DNA of 64,000 bases from Histomonas meleagridis. Taxonomy: Eukaryota > Parabasalia > Tritrichomonadida > Dientamoebidae. The stretch lies in the NCBI GenBank assembly GCA_020186115.1, contig WSYJ01000183.1, positions 103,648 through 167,647 on the forward strand, given 5' to 3'. The translations under genes were made by a program, and so were the position numbers. The notes below the pieces were generated by a model. It made no database searches. It had not been told where the DNA came from and was given only the letters and a program-made list of their open reading frames with translations. Shown piece after piece: positions 3,110-64,000 of this stretch (positions within the stretch are counted from its first letter, which is position 1; each line of letters starts with the position of its first letter).

Positions 3110-6103
3110 CTAACTTTTCAAAAAACTTTTGAAATCCTCTTCGTCTTGCTTTGTAATAGCTAGTTTTGGATCTTGAAAAATACATCTAGCTGCATATCTT
3201 ATTGATGCAACACACCTTGGACCATATCTATCAAAGTCAGTGTCAGCTGCATGAATTGGTAGGTAGCGATTTAAATCTGATTTTAACATAGAATGTAACC
3301 ACATTTCCAACTTGAAAGTATACCTTACAACTTTCCATTCTGAAAAGTAATCATTTGATAAAATTAAAACATAAGTAAACTTACTTGATTTTAATTGTAA
3401 TTTTTCTTTTTCTTTTATTGAAGTAATATATCCTATATTATATCTTTCATTTATTGCCTTTTCTATCGAGTTGAGTTCATTTTGACTAATATTTCTTACA
3501 TACAAAACATTAACCGTATACCCACTTAATGTTGTTGATCTTCTTTTATTATATCTTTCGAATCTTCGTAAGTTATTTCTAATATTAATATTCTTATACA
3601 ATAAAAACTTTGAGTTACTGCTTGAAAATTGAACGCCAAATATTGCTTGGAATAAGTACATGGAATTATGATTTGGTTGTTCAAAGAATACATACGAAAC
3701 TTGATAATTAGAAATAGATGAAATATTCGAAAGACTTAATATTTCAACATTGTAAAGATCTCTAAAATAAATTTTAGGATATAAAGTTGTTATTAAATTG
3801 CTTTCAATTTGATTTGCTTTTTTCAAATGATTATTAATTTTATTATTATAAATAATTCGTGGAATTGAAAATGCTAATCCAATTAATGGAACAAATGATA
3901 ATATAGTAACAGCAGTGCCTGAAGCACCTTCATATAACCATTTCATGCCATTAAGTTCTTTTCCTTCCTGCATAAATTCTGTCCAGTTTTTATCGTTAGC
4001 TTTTATATATGATAATAAATCATGAAGAATTTCATTAGAATATTGCTGAAAGTCTAAAAATGAAATATCTTCATTGCCAAGAATATATGGTAATACATAA
4101 CGTGTAGTCATAATAAATATTGTATTTATAGTTTGATGAATTGATTCTACATTATAATCATTAAAAAAAGATTTCATTAGAAGTAATGAAATATATTGAT
4201 TAAGAGTTAAACTACATGCACAACACAATTTAAGTGAGCGATTAAGATTATTCGGAATCCTTTCATTCTGAAAATTAAGGATTTTATTCCGTACTTCAAT
4301 ATAAAATTCATCAAACAATGAAATAATTCCATATCTAAGAAAATTAAAACATTCATTTACATTCATTTGATTTGTTGTTGCTGTTAAAATAAAATATAAT
4401 GATTGATAAACAGTGTTAACATAAACGTTGAAATTATTTCGATAATCTCCAAGTGGAAGTGGATGAAGAGAATTTGGTGCATAATATTCTTTAGCTATTT
4501 GATGTTGTTCCCACCATACACTTTGAAATCCCTTTATATTCTCCAAATATTCATCTGGATCGCTATTATTTAATACAATGTTCAAGTCTGCTTTATATTT
4601 CTTTACAAGAAAATATACTTTTGATAATGGTAGAGATGATGAAAGTTGAGCACGTCGAATAGTTGTTAAAACAGTTTTCATACTATCAACACTATCATTA
4701 AAATCAGAAATTGTCAAACAAACAGTAGAAACCGATGTAAATAATGCATTTGTTTTATCAAGAACATTTTTAAGTTGCATTTCATATTGTTCATCTCCAA
4801 TTCCTTGAGAATCAATAAAAAATATTGCAGTTTCCTTATTGATTTTAGATTTTGTAATAAGAGAATTACATTTGCCAATAAGTTCACCATATACCGGTTC
4901 ATCATCTTTTTCAATAGAAGCTATTCTATTAATTAAATCAGATCTAAGATATGGTCCATCAATCAATAATCCTTGTGTTTGACTTGCCGTTCCTTGTCCA
5001 GCATAATATGCAGAATTCCCTGTTAGTGTCTGTAAATACGTAGATTTTCCAGTTTGATATTTACCATATAACATTACGACCACAACTGGTCTATTACCTG
5101 CTCTTTTAAGAATTTCTTCTAATTTATCGACTTTTACAATTTCTTTTTTCCATTGATTTGGTTCATTTAATATTGGTTCTGGAATCAAAAAATTTATCAT
5201 AGGACAGCGATCATTAGAAATTATGTATTGCTTGTATGTATCAACTTCCGCTACATTAATAGAAAGTGATTCATACTCTGATTTTATCTTTTTAAAAATT
5301 TTTTTGAAATTTGGTCTTTCCTTTGGATCTAGAGAAAGACATTTTTGAATTAATTTAGCAAAAAACTTAATATTAGTTAGTTCAGGAAGAATGTTATTTT
5401 TCTTTTTTCTTATAATTTCAAAAGTACTAAGTCCGGTATAAGGCATTTTGCCAGTTAATATTTCGTTCATGAGTAAGCCAAAAGAATAAACATCAACTTC
5501 TTTTGTATAATTATTTCCTTCAAAAATTTCTGGAGCAATATAAACTAATGTTCCAATATGTGTTGACATTAACTCATTTTGTGGAACTGTTCTGGAAATA
5601 TCAAAGTCAGTTATTATCGGTCGGTATTGACTATCCACCAAGATATTATCAACTTTGAGATCACGATGACATATCTTTAATTTATGAAGGTATTCCATAC
5701 CTGCTGCAATACCAAGTATTAGTATAACTTTATGTGTTAAGTTCCACTCATGTGGTGGTTTCTGAATTACATTTCTTAGAGAACCATGTTCTTGAAAAGG
5801 TGTAATTAAAAGCGAATCCTTGTAGTTACCAGTGTCGTAAAACCCAACAACTGTTTGAATACAAGGATGTGAGCACATGCATAAAAACTTATATTCATCT
5901 TTAAGAGAATTGTATGCACTTTAACTTTTGGCCTTTTTCATTGCTACATATTGTGATGTACTTTTGATAATACCTTTATCAATAACACCAAATCCGCCTT
6001 GACTAATTGCCTTTTTAACAATTTCAAAATTGTCTAGACTTCTTAGTTGATGCTTTTCCATTCTTACTCTAAGTTGCTGGGAAAATTTATTAGCTTTATT
6101 CAT
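3110..6103 (-). CDS. protein kinase fused to a large GTPase, interrupted by one in-frame TAA
   Basis: Read as one frame from ATG 6103, this gives 996 residues plus an internal stop at codon 61 (TAA, plus-strand 5921-5923). Residues 26-57 hold the kinase N-lobe: a degenerate glycine loop (ISQGGFGV) and the beta-3 lysine (VAMKK). After the stop come the HRDLKVDN catalytic loop near 146, DFD instead of DFG near 166, and an APE motif. A GTPase-like region follows: Walker A GKYQTGKST near 347-355 and DSQG near 431. The spacing resembles guanylate-binding/dynamin-like GTPases, and a hydrophobic stretch follows near 735. All key kinase residues survive on both sides of the stop, so the lesion is recent, a sequence error, or read through. 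The start at 6103 is chosen because an initiator-like TCATTATTTTT lies 24 nt upstream. If the stop is real, translation could only give a 60-residue peptide or a kinase lacking its N-lobe from 5878. Confidence 0.75.
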
Positions 6104-6115
6104 CTTCCTTAATGT

Positions 6116-6133
6116 AATAAAAATAATGAATGA
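6116..6133 (-). promoter_or_regulatory. initiator-like element of the kinase-GTPase gene
   Basis: On the minus strand TCATTATTTTT matches the trichomonad initiator TCAYTW, with the presumed first base at 6127, about 24 nt before ATG 6103. A second overlapping TCATTC lies just upstream. The position supports 6103 over the earlier in-frame ATG at 6172. Confidence 0.5.
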
Positions 6134-7053
6134 AAAATGCCAAGCAATTATATCTGGCATTTTTATATTCATGGTTTTTCAACGCTGATAATTCGATCAA
6201 ATCAAATAGCCATGTTACAGACATTGTTGTTGAAGGAATAATTGTCAAAAATGAGTTGATTGAATAGATGATTGAATTGCTATATTGAATTTTTTTGGTG
6301 TTTCAATCAAACGTCAACATGAAATTTCATTCAAGAAGCTTCTTGTCAAAAAGTGGATAAAAACTATTTGAGTTGGAATCATAATGCATTAAACTTGATA
6401 AAATGTTTGCGTCATCCATATTACAACAATATTGTGTTTCACCAAAATTCAATTAGGATCCGTTTTTCTCGTATCGGACAAAATGAACGGGTTAAATTTT
6501 CCAAATTTCTAACAAAATCAATATCTGTGTAATTTAACACAGGTAAACCTAAACATCATCATTAAAAATGGTATATTAATATAATTATGATATTTTCTAA
6601 TGTTATTCCATTCATCGTAACCATTTCTACTTTTCACAAATATAATATTTTAATTCGCCTAGACCTTTTTTTAGATAAAAATATTCCTATGTCAGAAATT
6701 TTATTAAAATTTTGTACACTCTTGATGAAATCAATACCCAACCAATAACAAAAACTTTTGTGAAAAAATTTCTAACACACTGTGGTGCTTGCACAAAAAA
6801 TCCCATTAGCCTAGAAAAAACTGAACATTATTGCAATAATAATTAATTGAACAATTTTTATGCATAATTACCGATCAGTGGGCATTTCCAGAATGCAGTG
6901 ATCATAAATTCCATCTAATTTTAATAGATGAATAAACATCATTATATTTGCGCGTGATTTAACATTTTTGTGCTAAAACAAATGGGTTCAAGCATAATCA
7001 AAATCATAAAGAATGAATAAATACAAATTAATATAATTTAAGTTAATTGCTTT
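6134..7053. other. intergenic region, no gene seen
   Basis: About 0.9 kb of AT-rich DNA between the kinase-GTPase promoter and the 3' end of eL18. I see no open frame with coding character. A small nested inverted repeat (GATCA...GCATT / AATGC...TGATC) lies at 6873-6903. No GACCGTT or GGGYRCCC motif is present. Confidence 0.6.
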
Positions 7054-20989: not shown

Positions 20990-22509
20990 TTATGTTGAAG
21001 CATTCTCTAGAAATAATTGAACTATTTCATTATAATTTTTTTCACATGCAAGTATAAATGCTGTATTAAATGTTTTAAATGATTTCCATAACTTATTTTT
21101 AAATTTTATATTATTTAGTTAAACATCAAAGTTTTTAAGCGGACATCACGAATATTGATATCAATACCTTTTTGTTCAAGAAGTAATTTCACTATTTCAG
21201 TAAAACCATTTGCAGATGCTATCATTAAAGCTGTCCAGAAAAATAGAAATAATTTCCATATATTATTTTTGAAACAGGATAAAATAATTGAAATAAATTT
21301 TAAATGAAAAAAATAAAAATTTTTTGCATTGATATCTATTCCTTCTTGTTCAAGAAGTAGTTTGACGATATTTGTGTAACCTTTTGCAGTTGCGATCATA
21401 AGTGCCGTTTTAAACAATTACTATAATCTCCAAATATTATTTTTTGAATATTAAACTATTAGAATATATTTTAAATTAAAAAAATAATTTCCTTTTTCAT
21501 TAAAAATGATATCATCTCGTTTAAGTAGTTCTTTAACTATTATATAATTACCATTATCACAAGCAAGCATAAGCGATGTTTCAAATATTTTGATTGATTT
21601 CCACATATTATCTTAAAATATAAAATTATTTAAAGAAATTTTAAGTTAAATAAATAAAGAGCTTTATCATTGATATTAATTTCTTTATGCTTGAGAAGTA
21701 ATTTAACAATTTCTATATAATTATTTAAAACAGCTATTAGAAGTAATGTTCTATATAAAATGAATATATTTTAAATACATTCGTAAAACATTAAATTATT
21801 AAAATAAATTTTAATAAAAACGAATAAATATCTCGATCATTAATGTCAATTCCTTCTTTTTCAAGAAGCATTTTAACTAATATAGTATTGCCATTTTCAC
21901 ATGCAAGCATAAGTGCTGTTTCAAATTATTAAGATATTCTTCAAAAATTTTTATGATATATCGAATTATTAAATAAAGTATTAAATTGGATAAATTAATA
22001 TTTTTGTCATTGAAATCAATTCCTTTTTTCTCAAGAAGTAATTTTGCTATACTATTATTTCCATTTTCAGCTGCAATCATAAGTGCTGTGTTAAATAATT
22101 TTAATAATTTCCAAATATATTCATTTAATGAGAAATATATAAAGCAAATAATAAATAAAAGAATAAAACATCTTTTTTATTGAAATCAATTCTTTTTAGA
22201 CCAAGAAGTAATTTGATGACTTTTTCATGATTATTTTGAGATGCAATCATAAGTGCTGTTTGAAATAAATAAAATTATTTCCAAATATTAATATTTAATA
22301 AAAAAATATTAAGATAAACATTTAAAAGAACAAATAAACATTTATTGCATTAATATCAATTCTTTTTTGTCTAAGAAGTAATTCAACTATTTCGGGATAA
22401 CCTTTTTCAGATGCAATCATAAGTGCAGTTTGAAACAATTTAAATAAGTTTTAATAATAATTTTAAAACATATAATTATTAAAAGAAATTTCAAATAAAA
22501 CAAATTAAC
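20990..22509 (-). repeat. nine-copy 170-bp tandem array of ankyrin modules separated by 80-nt spacers
   Basis: Read on the minus strand, each unit has a 90-nt open ankyrin module (TALMIAS...LLLEQKGIDIN type) and an AT-rich spacer. The module starts fall at 22429, 22259, 22089, 21919, 21749, 21579, 21408, 21234 and 21064. The spacing is exactly 170 bp except for 171 and 174. Spacers are 80 nt, with one of 81 and one of 84. I read all nine modules and none contains a stop or frameshift. The last ends in a natural stop (TAA 20990-20992). Since 80 is not a multiple of three, the modules cannot be joined in one frame without removing about 68 nt each. The spacers share a pattern with a TTTGGAAATTATT-like stretch but lack trichomonad splice signals (GTAYGT, ACTAAC...CACAG). 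The array is the direct continuation of the ankyrin gene at 22417-23823. Confidence 0.85.
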
Positions 22510-23823
22510 ATCTTTTTCATTAATATTTATTTTTCCTTGCTCAATAATATATTTAACAAGTTCAATATTTCCGGATGCTGATGAAAATATCAAAGTAAAT
22601 TTTGGCATTTTATTATTTTGCAAAAAATGCTTAATAAGATATAAGTTTCCAAGTTTGGCTGCTTCGTATATAATCATTTCATCAATTTTCATTTCTTCTT
22701 TTTCTAGGAATGAAAGAATTTCATAATTATCACTTATAACACAAAAATATTTTAGATCATTAATGTTCTTTGGTTTCATTTGAACGTTTGCTTGTTGTCT
22801 ATTTAATGTTACATTGAAAGATAATCGAGTTCCTGAATTTGATGAATTTTGGAATTTTTCAAATTTATTTTCATAAATATATTTAAAGATTTCATTTTGA
22901 TGAAATGTAATAGCAGTATAATACGCACCTTTAAATGATGAATGATTTTGTTCACATATATGAACTATTTCAAGATTCCCACCTGCAACTGCATATTTAC
23001 CTGTTTCCTTTATTTTCGATTTGTTTAATAATAAATACCTAAAACACTTAATTGATCCAAAAAATGCTGCATAATCAATAAGTGGAATATATTCTTGGTT
23101 AATAAACGAATATCTTTCATAAAGTGATGGTTCTATTGTCTGTTTGAAATTAAATTTTGTTTGTGATGAAATTTCTTGAAGTTTTTCAACATTATCGTTT
23201 CGAATTATTTTTGCAATTTCATTTGGATTAACTCCTTCTTGAACATATCTCTTATGAAGTTCAAAATCATTTTGTGCTAATTCATCATAACTATTCACGA
23301 ATGATCTTTCTATTGGATCAATATATTCCGAGTTTTTGTTTTCTATTTCTGTTTTATATTGTGCAAAATATTTTGATGATATATGTTTAGTAATGTTTTC
23401 ATGAATTAAATTTCTTTCAATCATTTGCTCAATTAGGTAATATGCTTCTTGTGATTTAATATCAGATATATATTTAATAAAGATTTCTAAGATTTTAGGA
23501 TAATCTTTGCTTATTTCTTCTTCTTTCACTTGAATTATTTTAACATATTGTAAGTATATATTGATTTCATTCCTTTTTGAGTAAAATGAGAAATATATCA
23601 AATTACTTATAACTAAATTGAAAGAATATGGAAAATTCAAATCAAATATATTCATCGTTTTTTCAACTGATATTTCGAGATTTTCTTCTGTTAGATTTAA
23701 TATAATTTGCTGTAGCGTTATTAGTAATTCAATATAGTTTCTAAGATAGTTAGAGGCTTCATTTTTTCTTTTTAATGGGTCCTTAATAGTATTGATATTA
23801 TTTTGGTTGCAATCCTTTATCAT
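22417..23823 (-). CDS. DUF3447/ankyrin-repeat protein, 5' part of a longer modular gene
   Basis: The 468-aa frame begins at ATG 23821-23823. It has the layout typical of the large trichomonad family: an N-terminal helical region, a DUF3447-like part (about residues 165-330, with IPLIDYAAFFGSIKCFRYLL) and ankyrin repeats near the end (TLIFSSASGNIELVKYIIEQ). Ankyrin repeats bind proteins; the family's role is unknown. The last codons, from about VNLFYLKF on, are translation of the first non-coding spacer of the 170-bp array, so the true C-terminus is uncertain. If the spacers were removed the gene would run on to TAA 20990 with nine more modules. A TCATTTTT initiator lies 14 nt upstream of the ATG. 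Confidence 0.8.
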   Translation of the reverse strand: MIKDCNQNNINTIKDPLKRKNEASNYLRNYIELLITLQQIILNLTEENLEISVEKTMNIFDLNFPYSFNLVISNLIYFSFYSKRNEINIYLQYVKIIQVKEEEISKDYPKILEIFIKYISDIKSQEAYYLIEQMIERNLIHENITKHISSKYFAQYKTEIENKNSEYIDPIERSFVNSYDELAQNDFELHKRYVQEGVNPNEIAKIIRNDNVEKLQEISSQTKFNFKQTIEPSLYERYSFINQEYIPLIDYAAFFGSIKCFRYLLLNKSKIKETGKYAVAGGNLEIVHICEQNHSSFKGAYYTAITFHQNEIFKYIYENKFEKFQNSSNSGTRLSFNVTLNRQQANVQMKPKNINDLKYFCVISDNYEILSFLEKEEMKIDEMIIYEAAKLGNLYLIKHFLQNNKMPKFTLIFSSASGNIELVKYIIEQGKININEKDVNLFYLKFLLIIICFKIIIKTYLNCFKLHL

Positions 23824-32666: not shown

Positions 32667-34646
32667 TTACTTTTGATCCTTAAGGAATATTTCGTAGTAT
32701 TCATTTAATTGTTTTAATGCTTTTTGAGATTTACTAGATTCCTTTTTTTCTTCACATATTGAAATTAATGTATTTAATGTTCCCATTCCAACATTAGCTC
32801 TTAGTAACAAAATTCTTAAAGTCTTTTTGTTTCCACTCTTAATAGCGCATTCGAATGAAGAAATATTGGTGATTCCGTCGTTATAAGATGCACGAGGATT
32901 TGCACCATGATCAAGTAAAAACTTAAGTACTTTATTATAGCCTTTTTCAGCAGCCAAGCAAACTGGATGTAATACCTTCGGCTTTACACATTTAGGTTTC
33001 TTAATATCAGCACCATAATCATTGATTAACATTTCTAATGATTTTATATTATTTCCATCAACAGCTTCTATTACATATTTATCTAATTCGCTAAGTTCAA
33101 AGTCATCACATCCTACAAGAATATTAAGTCCAAATTTGAGTGTGTCTGGTGCATAATTATGAGCAGCTGCTCGAAGAAACATTAATGATGTCAAATCAGT
33201 ATTTTGTTCATACATTGCAACAATACAAAGAAAATTATTCTTCATTGCATAATATAATCCATTTAGCTCATCATCATCCGTTTTCACAACTGATTTACCA
33301 ACACCAAGAAAAAGTGAAATAATTAATTCCCATCCATACATACATGCATTAATAATTACATCTCTTCCATATGAATTAGAAACTTCTAATTCACCTCCAA
33401 GTAATTTTAATAACATTATTAAGTCACGATAACCTTTCTTGGCCATTTCAGTTATAAGATATTCTCCTGAAAAGGGTACTTGTTTATATTCTTTCCCATC
33501 TTTACCCTTGAAGCCTACAAGTTTGTAAAATTTGCCTTGATTTTGGTATATCGTTCTTTGCCTGTAAAAGTTAAGAATAGGTGAAGGTTGAGCATTAGGC
33601 GCACATTGTTGGAATAATGGTTCGAAACCGCTGAAGTTATTCATATTTGGATTAAATGTATTAATCTTAAATATTATATCGTAATTACGACATTCAAATG
33701 CATACCATACAAGAGAAAGATTATCTAAATAATCACCACCTTCAATAGACATATTATGTTTGCTAATAAGATGTTGAACCATTTCTTGAGAATGCCCGAT
33801 ACATGCTGCGCATAGACAGCCGTTAATATCGGTTTCGCCCATAGAATAAAGACGTTCGAAAAGTTCAATGTCACCGTTATAGCATGCGGAATGAATTGCA
33901 CGCCAACCATGAAGATTCGAGATATTAATAGGAACTTTTTGAGAAAAGAAGAAATCTATAACTTTCTGTGATTTGAAAAGAATAGCTAATGAAAGAATAG
34001 ATTGTGTGTCAGAACTAAGGCCGCCTATGGAAACACTGTATTTAGATTGATTGGATCCGTCAGTCTTATAGAGTTTTTTAACAGTATCAATATCATCTTT
34101 AATAATAGCTGAATCAAAGTCACTGCCATCATAACAACGTTCGAAGCGATAAACTTTAAAATTATCTTTACTACCTTCACGATATTGTTCTTGAGTGAGA
34201 CCATAACGTTTAATTATCGCGTCTACTCCATGAACAGAGACAAGTTCAGGAGCTAAAATTGAAGAATAATAAGAACCAGCTTTATAATGATAAGCATTGA
34301 TAGCATCTTCAGGTGTGAAAACACCAAAATCACAACAGCAAAAGAAAAAGAATTCACTCTGATGAATAGTGATATATGCTAGATTTTTTCTTTGTTCTTC
34401 AGTAAAAATTTCCAAAGATAATTGTGCAAGAGCTTCCGCATTTTTCCTTTTGAAAGGCGTTACAGCAGCTAAAATTATGCTAAAAAAGTCGGTATAATAT
34501 ATTGGATCAAAAGTTCGATAAAGTTTTATAATTTCTTCTTTATCTTTTTGATCTCCTTCGTAGTTGCGAAAGAAATTAAGGTAATAATTGCACTGTCCTA
34601 CAAATTTAAGTATATTTTCCTTTGCAAATGGTTCGTCAGCATCCAT
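32667..34646 (-). CDS. DUF3447/ankyrin-repeat protein
   Basis: The 659-aa protein has the trichomonad ankyrin-family layout. The N-terminal half is helical. From about residue 230 a series of ankyrin-like units includes LHGWRAIHSACYNGDIELF and, near the end, HPVCLAAEKGYNKVLKFLLDHGANPRA, the most canonical unit. Several central units are degenerate. The protein is predicted cytosolic and protein-binding. Unlike the family member at 22.4-23.8 kb its repeats are in one open frame with no spacers, a useful contrast. A TCACATTTT initiator lies 13 nt before the ATG. Confidence 0.88.
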   Translation of the reverse strand: MDADEPFAKENILKFVGQCNYYLNFFRNYEGDQKDKEEIIKLYRTFDPIYYTDFFSIILAAVTPFKRKNAEALAQLSLEIFTEEQRKNLAYITIHQSEFFFFCCCDFGVFTPEDAINAYHYKAGSYYSSILAPELVSVHGVDAIIKRYGLTQEQYREGSKDNFKVYRFERCYDGSDFDSAIIKDDIDTVKKLYKTDGSNQSKYSVSIGGLSSDTQSILSLAILFKSQKVIDFFFSQKVPINISNLHGWRAIHSACYNGDIELFERLYSMGETDINGCLCAACIGHSQEMVQHLISKHNMSIEGGDYLDNLSLVWYAFECRNYDIIFKINTFNPNMNNFSGFEPLFQQCAPNAQPSPILNFYRQRTIYQNQGKFYKLVGFKGKDGKEYKQVPFSGEYLITEMAKKGYRDLIMLLKLLGGELEVSNSYGRDVIINACMYGWELIISLFLGVGKSVVKTDDDELNGLYYAMKNNFLCIVAMYEQNTDLTSLMFLRAAAHNYAPDTLKFGLNILVGCDDFELSELDKYVIEAVDGNNIKSLEMLINDYGADIKKPKCVKPKVLHPVCLAAEKGYNKVLKFLLDHGANPRASYNDGITNISSFECAIKSGNKKTLRILLLRANVGMGTLNTLISICEEKKESSKSQKALKQLNEYYEIFLKDQK

Positions 34647-47374: not shown

Positions 47375-47880
47375 TACCCCCACCATACCCACATGTAATA
47401 CCCACCCAGTGATGACACACCATATACACAAGTAACACTTACAACATCCCCACCCCACAAGTACCCCCCACCCAGATACCCCACAACACCCACAAGTACC
47501 CCCCACCCAGACACCCCACAACACCCACACAATACCACCCACCCACACAGTACCACCCACCCACACGTACCACCCACACACGTACCACCCACCCACACAG
47601 TACCACCCACCCACACAGTACCACCCACCCACACGTACCACCCACACACGTACCACCCACCCACACAGTACCACCCACCCACACACCCCACCACCACACG
47701 TACCACCCACACACCCCACCACCACACGTACCACCCACACACGTACCACCCACCCACACAGTACCACCCACCCACACAGTACCACCCACCCACACGTACC
47801 ACCCACACACGTACCACCCACCCACACAGTACCACCCACCCACACACCCCACCACCACACGTACCACACACACTTACCAC
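47374..47880. repeat. satellite block A: heterogeneous CACCCA-rich repeats
   Basis: The composition switches sharply to C/A on the plus strand. Short variants of CAGTACCACCCACC and CGTACCACCCACA alternate. A longer segment starting near 47581 recurs at 47742 (161 bp apart), showing a higher-order duplication. Confidence 0.8.
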
Positions 47881-48065
47881 CCACACTCCCCCCCCACACC
47901 ACATCCCCCCAACAACCACACGTACCACCCACACTCCCCCCCACACACCACCCCCCCCCAACAACCACACGTACCACCCACACTCCCCCCCACACACCAC
48001 ATCCCCCCAACAACCACACGTACCACCCACACTCCCCCCCACACACCACATCCCCCCAACAACCA
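47881..48065. repeat. satellite block B: about four copies of a 49-bp unit
   Basis: The landmark AACAACCACAC occurs at 47911, 47960, 48009 and 48058, exactly 49 bp apart. Units contain a C-run and CACACCACATC. Confidence 0.8.
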
Positions 48066-48870
48066 CACTTACCACCCACACTTACCACCCACACTTACCA
48101 CCCACACTTACCACCCACACTTACCACCCACACTTACCACCCACACGTACCACCCACACTTACCACCCACACTTACCACCCACACGTACCACCCACACGT
48201 ACCACCCACACAGTACCACCCACACACAAGTAACACCCACACTTACCACCCACACTTACCACCCACACTTACCACCCACACTTACCACCCACACTTACCA
48301 CCCACACTTACCACCCACACAGTACCACCCACACACAAGTAACACCCACACAGTACCACCCACCCACACAGTACCACCCACACTTACCACCCACACTTAC
48401 CACCCACACTTACCACCCACACTTACCACCCACACTTACCACCCACACTTACCACCCACACAGTACCACCCACACTTACCACCCACACTTACCACCCACA
48501 CTTACCACCCACACTTACCACCCACACTTACCACCCACACTTACCACCCACACAGTACCACCCACACAGTACCACCCACACACAAGTAACACCCACACTT
48601 ACCACCCACACTTACCACCCACACTTACCACCCACACAGTACCACCCACACACAAGTAACACCCACACAGTACCACCCACACACAAGTAACACCCACACT
48701 TACCACCCACACAGTACCACCCACACACAAGTAACACCCACACAGTACCACCCACACACAAGTACCACCCACACTTACCACCCACACTTACCACCCACAC
48801 TTACCACACACACACAAGTACCACACACACAAGTACCACACACACAAGTACCACACACGTACCACCCACA
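48066..48870. repeat. satellite block C: 13-bp unit TTACCACCCACAC with variants
   Basis: Tandem TTACCACCCACAC, interspersed with AGTACCACCCACAC and AAGTAACACCCACAC forms. At the right edge ACCACCC gives way to ACCACAC, the form that dominates after 50 kb. Confidence 0.85.
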
Positions 48871-49985
48871 GGACACATGTGACTATCATCACAAGTAACA
48901 CTCACATAGTACCACACACACACAAGTACCACACACAGGACACATGTGACTATCATCACAAGTAACACTTACATATTACCACCCACACATACCACCCACA
49001 CACGTACCACCCACAGGACACATGTGACTATCATCACAAGTAACACTTACATATTCCCCCCAACACCCACACATGTACCACCCACAGGACACATGTGACT
49101 ATCATCACAAGTAACACTTACATATTCCCCCCAACACCCACACGTACCACCCACCAGACACATGCGGCTATCATCACTAGTAACACTTACATATTCCCCA
49201 ACACCCACACAGTACCACCCACAGGGACACATGTGACTATCATCACAAGTAACACTTACATATTCCCCCCAACACCCACACGTACCACTCCCCAGGACAC
49301 ATGTGACTATCATCACAAGTAACACTTACATATTCCCCCCAACACCCACACGTACCACCCACAGGACACATGTGACTATCATCACAAGTAACACTTACAT
49401 ATTCCCCCAACACCCACACAGTACCACCCACAGGACACATGTGACTATCATCACAAGTAACACTTACATATCTCCCCCAACACCCACACGTACCACCCAC
49501 AGGGACACATGTGACTATCATCACAAGTAACACTTACATATTCCCCCAAACACCCACACGTACCACCCACAGGACACATGTGACTATCATCACAAGTAAC
49601 ACTTACATATTCCCCCAACACCCACACGTACCACTCCACAGGACACATGTGACTATCATCACAAGTAACACTTACATATTCCCCCAACACCCACACGTAC
49701 CACCCATCAGGACACATGTGACTATCATCACAAGTAACACTTACATATTCACCCCCAACACCCACACACGTACCACCTACAGGGACACATGTGACTATCA
49801 TCACAAGTAACACATTCCCCCCAACACCCACACGTACCACCCACAGGACACATGTGACTATCATCACAAGTAACACTTACATATTCACACCCGCCGCCCA
49901 CACCTACCACCCACAGGACACACGCGACTACCATCACAAGTAACACACACATAGTACCACAACACCCACACGTACCACACACACA
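48871..49985. repeat. satellite block D: 16 copies of a roughly 69-bp unit
   Basis: The landmark GGACACATGTGACT recurs at 48871, 48938, 49016, 49087, 49156 (variant), 49225, 49295, 49364, 49433, 49503, 49572, 49641, 49710, 49783, 49846 and 49916. The spacing is mostly 69-71 bp. Each unit also holds TATCATCACAAGTAACAC, ACATATTCCCCC and a block-C-like CACGTACCACCCACA tail, so it was built from shorter satellite pieces plus a unique core. Confidence 0.9.
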
Positions 49986-50033
49986 AGCACACATGTGACT
50001 ACACACAAGTAACACTCACATATTCACCCCAAC

Positions 50034-53000
50034 ACCCACACAAGTACCACACACACAAGTACCACACACGACTAGCATCACAGTAACACATATGCATACC
50101 CAACACACACAAGTACCACACACACAAGTACCACACACACAAGTACCACACACACAAGTACCACACACCCACAAGTACCACACACACAAGTACCACACAC
50201 ACAAGTACCACACACACACAAGTACACACACAAGTACCACACACACAAGTACCACACACACAAGTACCACACACACAAGTACCACACACACAAGTACCAC
50301 ACACACACGCACCACACACACACGCACCACACACACACGCACCACACACACACAAGTACCACACACACAAGTACCACACACACAAGTACCACACACACAA
50401 GTACCACACACACAAGTACCACACACACATGTACCACACACACAAGTACCACACACACAAGTACCACACACACAAGTACCACACACACAAGTACCACACA
50501 CACAAGTACCACACACACAAGTACCACACACACACAAGTACCACACACACAAGTACCACACACACAAGTACCACACACACAAGTACCACACACACAAGTA
50601 CCACACACACAAGTACCACACACACAAGTACCACACACACAAGTACCACACACACAAGTACCACACACACAAGTACCACACACACAAGTACCACACACAC
50701 AAGTACCACACACACAAGTACCACACACACAAGTACCACACACACAAGTACCACACACACAAGTACCACACACACAAGTACCACACACACAAGTACCACA
50801 CACACAAGTACCACACACCCACACAAGTACCACACACACAAGTACCACACACACAAGTACCACACACACAAGTACCACACACACAAGTACCACACACACA
50901 AGTACCACACACACACAAGTACCACACACACAAGTACCACACACACAAGTACCACACACACAAGTACCACACACACAAGTACCACACACACAAGTACCAC
51001 ACACACAAGTACCACACACACAAGTACCACACACACAAGTACCACACACACAAGTACCACACACACAAGTACCACACGCACCACACACACAAGTACCACA
51101 CACACAAGACCCCACACACACAAGTACCACACACACAAGTACCACACACACAAGTACCACACACACAAGTACCACACACACAAGTACCACACACACAAGT
51201 ACCACACACACAAGTACCACACACACAAGTACCACACACACAAGTACCACACACACAAGTACCACACACACAAGTACCACACACACAAGTACCACACACA
51301 CACAAGTACCACACACACAAGTACCACACACACAAGTACCACACACACAAGTACCACACACACAAGTACCACACACACACAAGTACCACACACACAAGTA
51401 CCACACACACAAGTACCACACACACAAGTACCACACACACAAGTACCACACACACAAGTACCACACACACAAGTACCACACACACAAGTACCACACACAC
51501 AAGTACCACACACAAGTACCACACACACAAGTACCACACACACAAGTACCACACACACAAGTACCACACACACAAGTACCACACACACAAGTACCACACA
51601 CACAAGTACCACACACACAAGTACCACACACACAAGTACCACACACACAAGTACCACACACACAAGTACCACACACACAAGTACCACACACACAAGTACC
51701 ACACACACAAGTACCACACACACACAAGTACCACACACACACAAGTACCACACACACAAGTACCACACACACAAGTACCACACACACAAGTACCACACAC
51801 ACAAGTACCACACACACAAGTACCACACACACAAGTACCACACACACAAGTACCACACACACAAGTACCACACACACAAGTACCACACACACAAGTACCA
51901 CACACACAAGTACCACACACACAAGTACCACACACACAAGTACCACACACACAAGTACCACACACACAAGTACCACACACACAAGTACCACACACACAAG
52001 TACCACACACACAAGTACCACACACACAAGTACCACACACACAAGTACCACACACACAAGTACCACACACACAAGTACCACACACACAAGTACCACACAC
52101 ACAAGTACCACACACACAAGTACCACACACACAAGTACCACACACACACAAGTACCACACACACAAGTACCACACACACAAGTACCACACACACAAGTAC
52201 CACACACACAAGTACCACACACACAAGTAACCACACACACAAGTACCACACACACAAGTACCACACACACACACAAGTACCACACACACAAGTACCACAC
52301 ACACAAGTACCACACACACAAGTACCACACACACAAGTACCACACACACAAGTACCACACACACAAGTACCACACACACAAGTACCACACACACAAGTAC
52401 CACACACACAAGTACCACACACACAAGTACCACACACACAAGTACCACACACACAAGTACCACACACACAAGTACCACACACACAAGTACCACACACACA
52501 AGTACCACACACACAAGTACCACACACACAAGTACCACACACACAAGTACCACACACACAAGTACCACACACACAAGTACCACACACACAAGTACCACAC
52601 ACACAAGTACCACACACACAAGTACCACACACACAAGTACCACACACACAAGTACCACACACACAAGTACCACACACACAAGTACCACACACACAAGTAC
52701 CACACACACACAAGTACCACACACACAAGTACCACACACACAAGTACCACACACACAAGTACCACACACACAAGTACCACACACACAAGTACCACACACA
52801 CAAGTACCACACACACAAGTACCACACACACAAGTACCACACACACAAGTACCACACACACAAGTACCACACACACAAGTACCACACACACAAGTACCAC
52901 ACACACAAGTACCACACACACAAGTACCACACACACAAGTACCACACACACAAGTACCACACACACAAGTACCACACACACAAGTACCACACACACAAGT

Positions 53001-56000
53001 ACCACACACACAAGTACCACACACACAAGTACCACACACACAAGTACCACACACACAAGTACCACACACACAAGTACCACACACACAAGTACCACACACA
53101 CAAGTACCACACACACAAGTACCACACACACAAGTACCACACACACAAGTACCACACACACAAGTACCACACACACAAGTACCACACACACAAGTACCAC
53201 ACACACAAGTACCACACACACAAGTACCACACACACAAGTACCACACACACAAGTACCACACACACAAGTACCCACACACACAAGTACCACACACACAAG
53301 TACCACACACACAAGTACCACACACACAAGTACCACACACACAAGTACCACACACACAAGTACCACACACACAAGTACCACACACACAAGTACCACACAC
53401 ACAAGTACCACACACACAAGTACCACACACACACAAGTACCACACACACAAGTACCACACACACAAGTACCACACACACAAGTACCACACACACAAGTAC
53501 CACACACACAAGTACCACACACACAAGTACCACACACACAAGTACCACACACACAAGTACCACACACACAAGTACCACACTCACACAAGTACCACACACA
53601 CAAGTACCACACACACAAGTACCACACACACAAGTACCACACACACAAGTACCACACACACAAGTACCACACACACACAAGTACCACACACACAAGTACC
53701 ACACACACAAGTACCACACACACAAGTACCACACACACAAGTACCACACACACACAAGTACCACACACACAAGTACCACACACACAAGTACCACACACAC
53801 AAGTACCACACACACAAGTACCCCACACACAAGTACCACACACACAAGTACCACACACACAAGTACCACACACACAAGTACCACACACACAAGTACCACA
53901 CACACAAGTACCACACACACAAGTACCACACACACAAGTACCACACACACAAGTACCCACACACACAAGTACCACACACACAAGTACCACACACACAAGT
54001 ACCACACACACAAGTACCACACACACAAGTACCACACACACAAGTACCACACACACAAGTACCACACACACAAGTACCACACACACAAGTACCACACACA
54101 CAAGTACCACACACACAAGTACCACACACACAAGTACCACACACACAAGTACCACACACACAAGTACCACACACACAAGTACCACACACACAAGTACCAC
54201 ACACACAAGTACCACACACACAAGTACCACACACACAAGTACCACACACACAAGTACCACACACACAAGTACCACACACACAAGTACCACACACACAAGT
54301 ACCACACACACAAGTACCACACACAAGTACCACACACACAAGTACCACACACACAAGTACCACACACACAAGTACCACACACACAAGTACCACACACACA
54401 AGTACCACACACACAAGTACCACACACACAAGTACCACACACACAAGTACCACACACACAAGTACCACACACACAAGTACCACACACACAAGTACCACAC
54501 ACACAAGTACCACACACACAAGTACCACACACACAAGTACCACACACACAAGTACCACACACACAAGTACCACACACACAAGTACCACACACACAAGTAC
54601 CACACACACAAGTACCACACACACAAGTACCACACACACAAGTACCACACACACAAGTACCACACACACAAGTACCACACACACAAGTACCACACACACA
54701 CAAGTACCACACACACAAGTACCACACACACAAGTACCACACACACAAGTACCACACACACAAGTACCACACACACAAGTACCACACACACAAGTACCAC
54801 ACACACAAGTACCACACACACAAGTACCACACACACAAGTACCACACACACAAGTACCACACACACAAGTACCACACACACAAGTACCACACACAAGTAC
54901 CACACACACAAGTACCACACACACAAGTACCACACACACAAGTACCACACACACAAGTACCACACACACACAAGTACCACACACACAAGTACCACACACA
55001 CAAGTACCACACACACAAGTACCACACACACAAGTACCACACACACAAGTACCACACACACAACCGTACCACACACACAAGTACCACACACACAAGTACC
55101 ACACACACAAGTACCACACACACAAGTACCACACACACAAGTACCACACACACAAGTACCACACACACAAGTACCACACACACACAACCCCCACACACAC
55201 AAGTACCACACACACAAGTACCACACACACAAGTACCACACACACAAGTACCACACACACAAGTACCACACACACAAGTACCACACACACAAGTACCACA
55301 CACACAAGTACCACACACACAAGTACCACACACACAAGTACCACACACACAAGTACCACACACACAAGTACCACACACACAAGTACCACACACACAAGTA
55401 CCACACACACAAGTACCACACACACAAGTACCACACACACAAGTACCACACACACAAGTACCACACACACAAGTACCACACACACAAGTACCACACACAC
55501 AAGTACCACACACACAAGTACCACACACACAAGTACCACACACACAAGTACCACACACACAAGTACCACACACACAAGTACCACACACACAAGTACCACA
55601 CACACAAGTACCACACACACAAGTACCACACACACAAGTACCACACACACAAGTACCACACACACAAGTACCACACACACAAGTACCACACACACAAGTA
55701 CCACACACACAAGTACCACACACACAAGTACCACACACACAAGTACCACACACACAAGTACCACACACACAAGTACCACACACACAAGTACCACACACAC
55801 AAGTACCACACACACAAGTACCACACACACAAGTACCACACACACAAGTACCACACACACAAGTACCACACACACAAGTACCACACACACAAGTACCACA
55901 CACACAAGTACCACACACACAAGTACCACACACACAAGTACCACACACACAAGTACCACACACACAAGTACCACACACACAAGTACCACACACACAAGTA

Positions 56001-59000
56001 CCACACACACAAGTACCACACACACAAGTACCACACACACAAGAACCCCACACACAAGTACCACACACACAAGTACCACACACACAACCACCACACACAC
56101 AAGTACCACACACACAAGTACCACACACACAAGTACCACACACACAAGTACCACACACACAAGTACCACACACACAAGTACCACACACACAAGTACCACA
56201 CACACACAAGTACCACACACACAAGTACCACACACACAAGTACCACACACACAAGTACCACACACACAAGTACCACACACACAAGTACCACACACACAAG
56301 TACCACACACACAAGTACCACACACACAAGTACCACACACACAAGTACCACACACACAAGTACCACACACACAAGTACCACACACACAAGTACCACACAC
56401 ACAAGTACCACACACACAAGTACCACACACACAAGTACCACACACACACAAGTACCACACACACAAGTACCACACACACAAGTACCACACACACAAGTAC
56501 CACACACACAAGTACCACACACACAAGTACCACACACACAAGTACCACACACACAAGTACCACACACACAAGTACCACACACACAAGTACCACACACACA
56601 AGTACCACACACACAAGTACCACACACACAAGTACCACACACACAAGTACCACACACACAAGTACCACACACACAAGTACCACACACACAAGTACCACAC
56701 ACACAAGTACCACACACACAAGTACCACACACACAAGTACCACACACACAAGTACCACACACACAAGTACCACACACACAAGTACCACACACACAAGTAC
56801 CACACACACAAGTACCACACACACAAGTACCACACACACAAGTACCACACACACAAGTACCACACACACAAGTACCACACACACAAGTACCACACACACA
56901 AGTACACACACAAGTACCACACACACAAGTACCACACACACAAGTACCACACACAAGTACCACACACACAAGTACCACACACACAAGTACCACACACACA
57001 AGTACCACACACACAAGTACCACACACACAAGTACCACACACACAAGTACCACACACACAAGTACCACACACACAAGTACCACACACACAAGTACCACAC
57101 ACACAAGTACCACACACACAAGTACCACACACACAAGTACCACACACACAAGTACCACACACACAAGTACCACACACACAAGTACCACACACACAAGTAC
57201 CACACACACAAGTACCACACACACACAAGTACCACACACACAAGTACCACACACACAAGTACCACACACACAAGTACCACACACACAAGTACCACACACA
57301 CAAGTACCACACACACAAGTACCACACACACAAGTACCACACACACAAGTACCACACACACAAGTACCACACACAAGTACCACACACACAAGTACCACAC
57401 ACACAAGTACCACACACACAAGTACCACACACACAAGTACCACACACACAAGTACCACACACACAAGTACCACACACACAAGTACCACACACACAAGTAC
57501 CACACACACAAGTACCACACACACACAAGTACCACACACACAAGTACCACACACACAAGTACCACACACACAAGTACCACACACACAAGTACCACACACA
57601 CAAGTACCACACACACAAGTACCACACACACAAGTACCACACACACAAGTACCACACACACAAGTACCACACACACAAGTACCACACACACAAGTACCAC
57701 ACACACAAGTACCACACACACAAGTACCACACACACAAGTACCACACACACAAGTACCACACACACAGCACACACACACAAGTACCACACACACAAGTAC
57801 CACACACACAAGTACCACACACACAAGTACCACACACACACACACACAAGTACCACACACACACAAGTACCACACACACAAGTACCACACACACAAGTAC
57901 CACACACACAAGTACCACACACACAAGTACCACACACACAAGTACCACACACACAAGTACCACACACACACAAGTACCACACACACAAGTACCACACACA
58001 CAAGTACCACACACACAAGTACCACACACACAAGTACCACACACACAAGTACCACACACACAAGTACCCCACACACACAAGTACCACACACACAAGTACC
58101 ACACACACAAGTACCACACACAAGTACCACACACACAAGTACCACACACACAAGTACCACACACACAAGTACCCCACACACAAGTACCACACACACAAGT
58201 ACCACACACACAAGTACCACACACACAAGTACCACACACACAAGTACCACACACACAAGTACCACACACACAAGTACCACACACACAAGTACCACACACA
58301 CAAGTACCACACACACAAGTACCACACACACAAGTACCACACACACAAGTACCACACACACAAGTACCACACACACACAAGTACCACACACACAAGTACC
58401 ACACACACAAGTACCACACACACAAGTACCACACACACAAGTACCACACACACAAGTACCACACACACAAGTACCACACACACAGCACCACACACACAAG
58501 CACCACACACACACGTACCACACACACACAAGTACCACACACACAAGTACCACACACACAAGTACCACACACACAAGTACCACACACACAAGTACCACAC
58601 ACACAAGTACCACACACACAAGTACCACACACACAAGTACCACACACACAAGTACCACACACACAAGTACCACACACACAAGTACCACACACACAAGTAC
58701 CACACACACAAGTACCACACACACAAGTACCACACACACAAGTACCACACACACAAGTACCACACACACAAGTACCACACACACAAGTACCACACACACA
58801 AGTACCACACACACAAGTACCACACACAAGTACCACACACAAGTACCACACACACAAGTACCACACACACAAGTACCACACACACAAGTACCACACACAC
58901 AAGTACCACACACACAAGTACCACACACACAAGTACCACACACACAAGTACCACACACACAAGTACCACACACACAAGTACCACACACACAAGTACCACA

Positions 59001-60411
59001 CACACAAGTACCACACACACAAGTACCACACACACAAGTACCACACACACAAGTACCACACACACAAGTACCACACACACAAGTACCACACACACAAGTA
59101 CCACACACACAAGTACCACACACACACAAGTACCACACACACAAGTACCACACACACAAGTACCACACACACACAAGTACCACACACACAAGTACCACAC
59201 ACACAGTACCACACACACAAGTACCACACACACAAGTACCACACACACAAGTACCACACACACAAGTACCACACACACAAGTACCCACACACACAAGTAC
59301 CACACACACAAGTACCACACACACAAGTACCACACACACAAGTACCACACACACACAAGTACCACACACACAAGTACCACACACACAAGTACCACACACA
59401 CAAGTACCCACACACACAAGTACCACACACACAAGTACCACACACACAAGTACCACACACACAAGTACCACACACACAGTACCACACACACAAGTACCAC
59501 ACACACAAGTACCACACACACAAGTACCACACACACAAGTACCACACACACAAGTACCACACACACACAAGTACCACACACACAAGTACCACACACACAA
59601 GTACCACACACACACAAGTACCACACACACAAGTACCACACACACAAGTACCACACACACAAGTACCACACACACAAGTACCACACACACAAGTACCACA
59701 CACACAAGTACCACACACACAAGTACCACACACACAAGTACCACACACACAAGTACCACACACACAAGTACCACACACACAAGTACCACACACACAAGTA
59801 CCACACACACAAGTACCACACACACAAGTACCACACACACACAAGTACCACACACACAAGTACCACACACACAAGTACCACACACACAAGTACCACACAC
59901 ACAAGTACCACACACACAAGTACCACACACACAAGTACCACACACACAAGTACCACACACACAAGTACCACACAAGTACCACACACACAAGTACCACACA
60001 CACAAGTACCACACACACAAGTACCACACACACAAGTACCACACACACAAGTACCACACACACAAGTACCACACACACAAGTACCACACACACAAGTACC
60101 ACACACACAAGTACCACACACACAAGTACCACACACACAAGTACCACACACACAAGTACCACACACACAAGTACCACACACACAAGTACCACACACAAGT
60201 ACCACACACACAAGTACCACACACACAAGTACCACACACACAAGTACCACACACACAAGTACCACACACACAAGTACCACACACACAAGTACCACACACA
60301 CAAGTACCACACACACAAGTACCACACACACAAGTACCACACACACAAGTACCACACACACAAGTACCACACACACAAGTACCACACACACAAGTACCAC
60401 ACACACAAGTA

Positions 60412-60443
<32 letters not shown>

Positions 60444-63400
60444 GTACCACACACACAAGTACCACACACACAAGTACCACACACACAAGTACCACACACA
60501 CAAGTACCACACACACAAGTACCACACACACAAGTACCACACACACACAAGTACCACACACACAAGTACCACACACACAAGTACCACACACACAAGTACC
60601 ACACACACAAGTACCACACACACAAGTACCACACACACAAGTACCACACACACACACAAGTACCACACACACAAGTACCACACACACAAGTACCACACAC
60701 ACAAGTACCACACAACCACCACACACAAGTACCACACACACAAGTACCACACACACAAGTACCACACACACAAGTACCACACACACAAGTACCACACACA
60801 CAAGTACCACACACACAAGTACCACACACACAAGTACCACACACACAAGTACCACACACACAAGTACCACACACACAAGTACCACACACACAAGTACCAC
60901 ACACACAAGTACCACACACACAAGTACCACACACACAAGTACCACACACACAAGTACCACACACACAAGTACCCCACACACACAAGTACCACACACACAA
61001 GTACCACACACACAAGTACCACACACACACAAGTACCACACACACACAAGTACCACACACACAAGTACCACACACACAAGTACCACACACACAAGTACCA
61101 CACACACAAGTACCACACACACAAGTACCACACACACAAGTACCACACACACAAGTACCACACACACAAGTACCACACACACAAGTACCACACACACAAG
61201 TACCACACACACAAGTACCACACACACAAGTACCACACACACAAGTACCACACACACAAGTACCACACACACAAGTACCACACACACAAGTACCACACAC
61301 ACAAGTACCACACACACAAGTACCACACACACAAGTACCACACACACAAGTACCACACACACAAGTACCACACACACAAGTACCACACACACAAGTACCA
61401 CACACACAAGTACCACACACACAAGTACCACACACACAAGTACCACACACACAAGTACCACACACACAAGTACCACACACACAAGCACACACACAAGTAC
61501 CACACACACAAGTACCACACACACAAGTACCACACACACAAGTACCACACACACAAGTACCACACACACAAGTACCACACACACAAGTACCACACACACA
61601 AGTACCACACACACAAGTACCACACACACAAGTACCACACACACAAGTACCACACACACAAGTACCACACACACAAGTACCACACACACAAGTACCACAC
61701 ACACAAGTACCACACACACAAGTACCACACACACAAGTACCACACACACAAGTACCACACACACAAGTACCACACACACAAGTACCACACACACAAGTAC
61801 CACACACACAAGTACCACACACACAGTACCACACACACAAGTACCACACACACAAGTACCACACACACAAGTACCACACACACAAGTACCACACACACAA
61901 GTACCACACACACAAGTACCACACACACAAGTACCACACACACAAGTACCACACACACAAGTACCACACACACAAGTACCACACACACAAGTACCACACA
62001 CACAAGTACCACACACACAAGTACCACACACACAAGTACCACACACACAAGTACCACACACACAAGTACCACACACACAAGTACCACACACACAAGTACC
62101 ACACACACAAGTACCACACACACAAGTACCACACACACAAGTACCACACACACAAGTACCACACACACAAGTACCACACACACAAGTACCACACACACAA
62201 GTACCACACACACAAGTACCACACACACAAGTACCACACACACAAGTACCACACACACAAGTACCACACACACAAGTACCACACACACAAGTACCACACA
62301 CACAAGTACCACACACACAAGTACCACACACACAAGTACCACACACACAAGTACCACACACACAAGTACCACACACACACAAGTACCACACACACAAGTA
62401 CCACACACACAAGTACCACACACACAAGTACCACACACACAAGTCCCACACACACACAAGTACCACACACACAAGTACCACACACACAAGTACCACACAC
62501 ACAAGTACCACACACACAAGTACCACACACACAAGTACCACACACACAAGTACCACACACACAAGTACCACACACACAAGTACCCCACACACACAAGTAC
62601 CACACACACAAGTACCACACACACAAGTACCACACACACAAGTACCACACACACAAGTACCACACACACAAGTACCACACACACAAGTACCACACACACA
62701 AGTACCACACACACAAGTACCACACACAAAAAGAACACACACACAAGTACCACACACAAGTACCACACACACAAGTACCACACACACAAGTACCACACAC
62801 ACGCGTACCACACACACGCGTACCACACACACAAGTACCACACACACAAGTACCACACACACAAGTACCACACACACAAGTACCACACACACAAGCACCA
62901 CACACACAAGTACCACACACACAAGTACCACACACACAAGTACCACACACACAAGTACCACACACACAAGTACCACACACACAAGTACCACACACACAAG
63001 TACCACACACACAAGTACCACACACACAAGTACCACACACACAAGTACCACACACACAAGTACCACACACACAAGTACCACACACACAAGTACCACACAC
63101 ACACAAGTACCACACACACAAGTACCACACACACAAGTACCCACACACACAAGTACCACACACACAAGTACCACACACACAAGTACCACACACACAAGTA
63201 CCACACACACAAGTACCACACACACAAGTACCACACACACAAGTACCACACACACAAGTACCACACACACAAGTACCACACACACAAGTACCACACACAC
63301 ACAAGTACCACACACACACAAGTACCACACACACAAGTACCACACACACAAGTACCACACACACAAGTACCACACACACAAGTACCACACACACAAGTAC

Positions 63401-64000
63401 CACACACACAAGTACCACACACACAAGTACCACACACACAAGTACCACACACACAAGTACCACACACACAAGTACCACACACACAAGTACCCCACACACA
63501 CACACACACCACACACACAAGTACCACACACACAAGTACCACACACACAAGTACCACACACACAAGTACCACACACACAAGTACCACACACACAAGTACC
63601 ACACACACAAGTACCACACACACAAACACACACACAAGTACCACACACACAAGTACCACACACACAAGTACCACACACACAAGTACCACACACACAAGTA
63701 CCACACACACAAGTACCACACACACAAGTACCACACACACAAGTACCACACACACAAACACCACACACACAAGTACCACACACACAAGTACCACACACAC
63801 AAGTACCACACACACAAGTACCACACACACAAGTACCACACACACAAGTACCACCACACACACAAGTACCACACACACAAGTACCACACACACAAGTACC
63901 ACACACACAAGTACCACACACACAAGTACCACACACACACAAGTACCACACACACAAGTACCACACACACAAGTACCACACACACAAGTACCACACACAC
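50034..64000. repeat. satellite block E: about 14 kb of a 15-bp unit AAGTACCACACACAC
   Basis: Roughly 900 tandem copies reach the right edge. Most units are identical. Variants include 17-bp and 13-bp forms (one CA more or less), single-base changes, a longer CA run at 60414-60442 and scattered lesions such as 62730-62740. Each unit carries GTAC. The unit length is divisible by three and has no TAA, TAG or TGA on either strand, so long open frames in all directions are artefacts. The A/C-rich strand is always the plus strand. Confidence 0.97.

Follow-up and report, generated by a model that had tools for sequence, protein, structure and literature searches.

Histomonas meleagridis is a parasite of turkeys and chickens. 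A stretch of 64,000 nucleotides (nt) of its 43.28-Mb genome assembly (contig C117, positions 103648 to 167647; hereafter the window) contains an ankyrin gene whose repeats are separated by spacers made of AT-rich elements of 17 nt, with one codon behind each. Since the triplets have a coding function that the 17-mers lack, the 17-mers seem to be removed or skipped before or during protein synthesis, and we propose that the ankyrin linkers are split by ultrashort 17-nt intervening sequences that are probably cut from the transcript. The structure recurs in a large family of ankyrin genes, in divergent ankyrin genes of the same genome and, judging from protein sequences, in a second lineage.

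The array lies on the minus strand and consists of one module within an upstream open reading frame (ORF), eight full modules and one shortened final module, with nine spacers between them, seven of 80 nt, one of 81 nt and one of 84 nt. The upstream ORF of 468 amino acids begins with an ATG at 23823 and matches DUF3447 and ankyrin profiles (Pfam Ank_2). As called by the ORF finder it extends to 22417 by entering spacer 1; the coding part stops at 22510, with Lys-Asp. The initial annotation had described a strict array with these spacer lengths, modules free of stops and frameshifts, and a last module closed by its own TAA, and all of this was borne out, in that the eight full modules past spacer 1 are open and the final one, shortened to 24 residues, ends with TAA at 20990-20992. 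Its statement that the modules cannot be joined in frame holds for the 80-nt spacers, which shift the frame, and for the 81-nt spacer, a multiple of three that contains stops, but not for the 84-nt spacer, also a multiple of three, which is stop-free in that frame, so that this single junction can be read through. The inner structure of the spacers was absent from that description.

Each window spacer contains four elements of 17 to 18 nt, each followed by one codon (by two codons once, in spacer 8), and the linker glycine stands at codon -2 in six of the nine linkers. The plan of the spacer is D-[17]-x-[17]-x-[17]-Gly-[17]-x-TALM. Counts of period, stops and element ends were restricted to spacers of exactly 80 or 63 nt (for the period, 60 nt as well) from the window and from loci L001-L024, where the commonest spacer lengths are 80, 63, 60, 81, 57, 77, 83 and 100 nt. 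A 20-nt period, corresponding to 17 nt plus a triplet, was present in the 80-nt spacers (n = 70) and in the 63-nt spacers (n = 47), the 63-nt spacer being an 80-nt spacer without its first 17-mer, the triplet of which stays. Triplets 2 and 4 are among the least conserved sites, a few single positions within the elements varying as much, and triplet 3 is mostly GGA. If only the 17-mers are dropped, four codons (x-x-Gly-x) are left between modules, as in a normal ankyrin loop; ordinary ankyrin repeats of the same genome have 12 or 9 nt at this position. The earlier figure of about 68 nt to be removed per spacer therefore fits (68 = 4 x 17), but as four separate elements with codons between them, not as one block; similarly, the suggested non-canonical intervening sequences are found four to a linker and not one per repeat.

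Parsing into elements and codons succeeded for 160 of 169 distinct spacers, with an advantage of 3 score units (bits) given to 3-nt segments and an element profile taken from the same family; the unparsed spacers were left out of the following counts. The element length was 17 nt in 561 of 581 cases and 15, 16 or 18 nt in the remainder. Codons summed to 12 nt per linker in 121 cases, to 9 nt in 16, to 15 nt in 12 and to 6 nt in one, a multiple of three in 150 of 160, and codon -2 was glycine in 118 of 154 linkers, by way of GGA, GGT, GGG or GGC. Each of the four element positions shows its own consensus across arrays, suggesting that the four elements were probably in place before the gene family spread. 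In the TALH-type arrays L021 (C50:366500-372000), L011, L005 and L017 the copy number of the 20-nt unit differs from linker to linker (between 2 and 12 in L021), and within the unit the 17-mer is nearly invariant and the triplet variable; multiplication of the unit would add codons to the loop.

Two tests that need no element profile indicate that the triplets are coding. The loop glycine, scored as GG with no element assumed, was sought upstream of 261 distinct ankyrin repeat starts from 331 matches (start residue T, S or N, a hydrophobic third residue, and 60 nt of upstream sequence present). It was at its normal place in 33; among the other 228, GG lay exactly 17 nt further upstream in 128, and the next commonest shift, 37 nt (22 starts), equals 17 + 20. 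By group, the 17-nt shift was observed in 57 of 70 main-family starts, in 62 of 122 starts from other genes and in only 9 of 36 TALH-type starts. In the second test, none of the 432 linker triplets from 108 distinct spacers was a stop, against 21.3 expected from column composition. For the 19 other phases of the 20-nt unit, the strongest deficits (at an expectation above 5) were 3 against 7.7, 5 against 9.4 and 8 against 15.0.

Selection on the modules was assessed by neutral simulation, using substitutions only, starting from the module consensus and applying the spacer composition and the observed number of differences. All eight window modules stayed open in 0 of 3000 runs, and the ratio of nonsynonymous to synonymous differences per site (pN/pS) in the window modules is 0.65, whereas 200 neutral runs averaged 1.24 and never fell below 0.86. 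The window modules are thus under purifying selection as protein while carrying the spacers. The initial annotation had considered a decaying array kept open by luck and had named a module ratio near one as one sign of a pseudogene array; neither agrees with these values for the window copy, in which stops and frameshifts do not affect the modules as they do the spacers (8 of 8 full modules open). Across 19 arrays, 2 of 187 non-terminal modules contain a stop, and in 12 of the 19, the window included, the final module is closed by a stop after 20-33 residues. The modules are recognizable as ankyrin repeats of 33-34 residues (T-[AP]-L-x-x-A, with the loop glycine) by Pfam Ank_2, by the module scan and by the glycine counts.

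Along the minus strand of the window, the first coding segment (22510-23823; ORF and profile matches to DUF3447 and ankyrin) ends with array module 1 at 22510-22599; the later modules were located by the module scan. Spacer 1 (22430-22509, 80 nt) has elements at 22493-22509, 22473-22489, 22453-22469 and 22433-22449 with codons E, Y, K and Q, and leads to module 2 (22340-22429). Spacer 2 (22260-22339, 80 nt; elements 22323-22339, 22303-22319, 22283-22299 and 22263-22279; codons N, F, G and Q) precedes module 3 (22170-22259), which is followed by spacer 3 (22090-22169, 80 nt; elements 22153-22169, 22133-22149, 22113-22129 and 22093-22109; codons I, L, G and N) and module 4 (22000-22089). The codons of spacer 4 (21920-21999, 80 nt) are N, D, E and E, behind elements at 21983-21999, 21963-21979, 21943-21959 and 21923-21939; module 5 occupies 21830-21919. 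Next are spacer 5 (21750-21829, 80 nt; elements 21813-21829, 21793-21809, 21773-21789 and 21753-21769; codons K, N, K and R), module 6 (21660-21749), spacer 6 (21580-21659, 80 nt; elements 21643-21659, 21623-21639, 21603-21619 and 21583-21599; codons K, Y, G and E) and module 7 (21490-21579). The third element is 18 nt long in both of the longer spacers, namely spacer 7 (21409-21489, 81 nt; elements 21473-21489, 21453-21469, 21432-21449 and 21412-21428; codons K, N, G and K), ahead of module 8 (21319-21408), and spacer 8 (21235-21318, 84 nt; elements 21302-21318, 21282-21298, 21258-21275 and 21238-21254; codons K, Y-P, G and W), ahead of module 9 (21145-21234). Spacer 9 (21065-21144, 80 nt), with elements at 21128-21144, 21108-21124, 21088-21104 and 21068-21084 and codons D, K, G and N, is joined to the shortened last module at 20990-21064.

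A genome search with the Ank_2 profile returned many places at which about 60 profile positions were stretched over about 240 nt, often with stops. Spaced ankyrin modules were present in 20 of 20 such regions, which had been chosen for spaced-looking matches, so that fractions of spaced repeats among them are not genome-wide rates. The exact 17-mer ATTTATTTTAATAATTT occurs 1912 times in the genome and its reversed pattern 12 times. Twenty copies, mostly isolated ones, were sampled from contigs C1, C2, C5 and C7 only; an ankyrin module was detected beside 18, and the other two (L044 and L046) have flanks that by eye look ankyrin-like and decayed. A genome-wide search for further ankyrin genes with such spacers, as had been advised at the outset, thus yielded a large gene family and additional divergent genes. 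In the window itself, the second ankyrin gene was confirmed to have no spacers, being one open frame of 659 amino acids at 32667-34646.

In the ankyrin genes outside the main family, single or paired T-rich 17-mers of unrelated sequence flank the same glycine codon, as read by eye. L004 on C55 has DENG-[17]-N-TPLH and NKFD-[17]-M-TPLH, L037 on C120 has NKD-[17]-GGT-[17]-GAA, and L039 on C57 has NE-[18]-GGC-[17]-GAT; two 17-mers stand beside GGT or GGC both in L034 on C105 and in L032/L003, a single locus on C50. The length and position of the element are conserved in these genes, and its sequence is not. Frame-break scans pointed to such 17-nt breaks in divergent ankyrin genes. Two other 17-nt skips, in L006 and L023, fall within N-terminal segments; they resemble ordinary frameshifts and were not accepted as elements.

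Protein searches retrieved sequences from ENA contigs, the best of which (P0001-P0005) share 49-55% identity with the window protein. At least six of 23 proteins (P0001, P0002, P0004, P0007, P0010 and P0015) end no more than one residue from the first linker, and the NCBI Histomonas protein P0006 stops at the first linker element. Twelve others (P0035-P0046) each cross one or more in-frame spacers of about 21 residues that closely resemble the 63-nt spacer of Histomonas. P0003 is compatible with an 80-nt spacer ending in a 17-nt element, by a hand reading of the protein in which codons are degenerate. Because these second-lineage proteins show the same spacer, its architecture seems to be older than one genome; no DNA of the second lineage was found in genome or viral contig collections. 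Two further ankyrin proteins from ENA contigs, P0106 and P0117, contain a different, longer in-frame spacer with the motif WNLxxTFNYT ahead of the next repeat, possibly representing another lineage with elements of another length. The NCBI Histomonas proteins P0006, P0014, P0020 and P0021 are named cask-interacting protein (caskin), yet are relatives of the DUF3447-type window protein. The accessible part of a proteomic study of H. meleagridis reports one unigene, KN motif and ankyrin repeat domain-containing protein 1, validated by parallel reaction monitoring (PMC10063853).

According to the mechanism that we favor, the gene would encode an N-terminal segment matching DUF3447 and then a C-terminal ankyrin array, each linker of which would be written as [17] codon [17] codon [17] Gly codon [17] codon. 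The 17-nt elements would act as fixed-length, extremely short introns that are excised during or after transcription, and excision would join the single codons between repeats to give the 34-residue ankyrin repeat. Removal at the RNA level is what we infer from the genomic sequence, and it is the first choice because fixed-length, AU-rich introns are known in Stentor and because core parts of a spliceosome are present. Prp8 is encoded by one open frame of 2333 amino acids, and U2 was found above its cut-off and U6 just below its own (E 1.9e-8). For U1 there was no Rfam match in the genome, and none in the controls either. Main-family elements have an A at position 14 of 17 in 88% of cases and at position 11 in 78%, several divergent elements having no A there; the A at position 14 might serve as a branch point in main-family elements.

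Introns of the Trichomonas vaginalis type carry the 3′ motif ACTAACACACAG and a 5′ GTATGT with ACTAAC downstream. Neither pattern is enriched in the whole genome, with 3 matches to ACTAACACACAG against 2 to its reverse, and 34 matches to GTATGT..ACTAAC against 237 reversed. The elements were therefore rejected as introns of this type, and the earlier remark that the spacers lack trichomonad splice signals was confirmed. The elements also have no ACTAAC-like branch motif. If the annotated introns of H. meleagridis are real, their signals differ from those of T. vaginalis, since neither pattern is enriched.

Several observations weigh against excision by splicing. The first dinucleotide of 392 elements was AT in 214, AA in 85 and GT in 42, and the last was TT in 328, a misfit with GT-AG splicing. 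All fitted elements are in phase 0, between codons, a restriction that splicing does not impose, and a spliceosome would have to join exons of only 3 nt flanked by introns of 17 nt, with up to four such introns in a row. No common RNA fold of the spacers was detected, RNAalifold finding no pair for 68 distinct 80-nt and 40 distinct 63-nt spacers (its shuffled controls were uninformative, as no pair arose), and single spacers fold no better than shuffled ones. The parse itself leaves 10 of 160 linkers whose codons do not sum to a multiple of three, besides the 9 of 169 spacers that could not be parsed, and the copies are related, so that the counts are not independent and the probability of the stop depletion is not a simple one. 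Some arrays, L044 and L046 among them, are clearly decayed, and apparent frameshifts occur in the DUF3447-like N-terminal segment of L005, L014, L019, L020 and L023; part of the gene family may be broken, and the array at C24:243000-249000 has an open N-terminal frame. In the sequence examined, two noisy frame-break scans gave no convincing element in non-ankyrin genes or outside ankyrin linkers. Finally, a generic ankyrin probe with ordinary linkers matched no protein above 65% identity among the 120 of 180 matches listed, in a collection predicted from genomes and metagenomes, in which a missing joined product says little.

Some of these points would be expected if the elements were retained in the mRNA and the ribosome hopped over each of them, decoding the single codons between hops. 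Such translational bypassing would suit elements that are of near-fixed length, fit exactly between two codons and have neither GT-AG nor a T. vaginalis-type consensus, and bypassing on a massive scale exists in the mitochondria of Magnusiomyces capitatus, with 81 inserts according to the accessible text of PMC5009743. We nonetheless consider it unlikely in Histomonas. Hopping of the gene-60 type was rejected because matched landing codons are rare here, the codon before the element equaling the element's last triplet in only 6 of 204 cases; this objection is softened by M. capitatus, for which the same text likewise describes several cases without matched codons. ATT, AAT and GTT, the most frequent first triplets of the elements, are ordinary codons and not an unused one, no conserved RNA fold accompanies the elements, and up to four hops per repeat, 36 in the window gene, would require near-perfect efficiency. 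That the arrays are pseudogenes or satellite-like, ankyrin copies with AT-rich spacers that amplified and decayed and are now without function, would explain the decayed arrays, the broken N-terminal segments, the minisatellite-like 2 to 12 copies in TALH-type linkers and the lack of an expressed product among the protein matches listed. It is quite unlikely in view of the depletion of stops in linker triplets and modules, the pN/pS of the window, the shortened terminal modules with a stop in 12 of 19 arrays and the recurrence of this structure in a second lineage. The death of some arrays would not change the fact that selection operated with the elements already there.

Two further explanations were weighed in place of the excision of separate 17-nt elements. 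One intron per linker (37-77 nt or longer), spanning all of its elements together with the codons they enclose, would keep the frame equally well, and an intron of 57 or 77 nt would be easier for a spliceosome than 3-nt exons. The inner triplets would then be non-coding, yet none of the 432 linker triplets is a stop; the glycine codon is kept with synonymous GGA, GGT and GGC where the elements are unrelated, linkers with a single element retain all four codons (for example DENG-[17]-N), and the product would be without the loop glycine of ankyrins. This arrangement is very unlikely, and a single intron of about 68 nt per spacer was ruled out on the linker codons. Translation of the spacers as an extra insert of about 21-27 residues is extremely improbable: the 63-nt spacers are multiples of three and second-lineage proteins cross such spacers in frame, but 80-nt spacers shift the frame, and the 63-nt spacers are not simply translated, since 20 of 40 distinct ones hold an in-frame stop. 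Differences by frame position are 0.28, 0.22 and 0.28, with no excess at third positions, and the second-lineage proteins are a biased sample in that only open frames reach protein databases.

Stwintrons, nested spliceosomal introns of fungi, resemble the Histomonas elements in packing several introns at one place; they are nested, whereas the elements stand side by side with one codon between them. Closer in size are the ultrashort spliceosomal introns of Stentor coeruleus, 15-16 nt in the part of the report available (PMC9505925), which are likewise very short, AU-rich and almost fixed in length. Compared with these, the elements lack GT-AG, were seen, in the sequence examined, only in ankyrin linkers, and occur up to four within 12 coding nucleotides. 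For a parabasalid, the accessible text of PMC12316389 describes type B introns of T. vaginalis of 23-25 nt, an ACTAA fused to a 12-nt 3′ motif, introns in some ankyrin genes and, for stableri, up to two introns per gene; these introns share with the Histomonas elements a parabasalid host, very short length and a presence in ankyrin genes, but neither their splice motifs nor their low number per gene hold for the latter. The M. capitatus inserts, as described (PMC5009743), are similarly many, short and within coding sequence that needs them skipped; they are mitochondrial and place an unused codon in the A site, whereas the Histomonas elements are in nuclear genes, of fixed length and mostly with ordinary first codons. 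No published description of the elements was found in the literature on Histomonas and parabasalid introns, ankyrins and ultrashort introns, a search that most subscription papers lay outside.

Two other features of the window were recorded. A kinase gene on the minus strand (3110-6178) encodes a kinase domain and then a weak GBP match, and has one in-frame TAA (5921-5923) in the N-lobe with both sides in the same frame, a nonsense allele or a site of readthrough. A satellite region extends from 47449 to 64000, reaching the end of contig C117; about 927 copies of the 15-bp unit CACACACACAAGTAC begin at 50033 and are preceded by 69-bp and 26/39-bp arrays.

The virulent H. meleagridis assembly is described, in the part of the publication available, as 43 Mb with 28% GC, and its annotation as having scarce introns, at most one per gene and 573 in total in the virulent strain (PMC8529796); one 17-mer of the ankyrin linkers alone is present in 1912 copies. 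More tentatively, and as a possibility rather than an expectation, Histomonas and at least one related lineage may strip ankyrin mRNAs of thousands of 17-nt elements through an excision pathway that measures length, works without GT-AG sites and is able to release exons of a single codon. Ordinary splicing would then be accompanied by a further system of splicing (or bypass) that is specific to one gene family. If true, genes would be interrupted here in a manner not previously known, in a lineage considered nearly intron-free, and this would push the limits of splicing or decoding, with 17 nt, single-codon exons and no GT-AG. It would also provide a clean system with many natural variants of one short element, in a parasite for which transcriptome data already exist. 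If the elements are removed, a large protein family has so far been invisible, its gene models ending at the first element, as in P0006.
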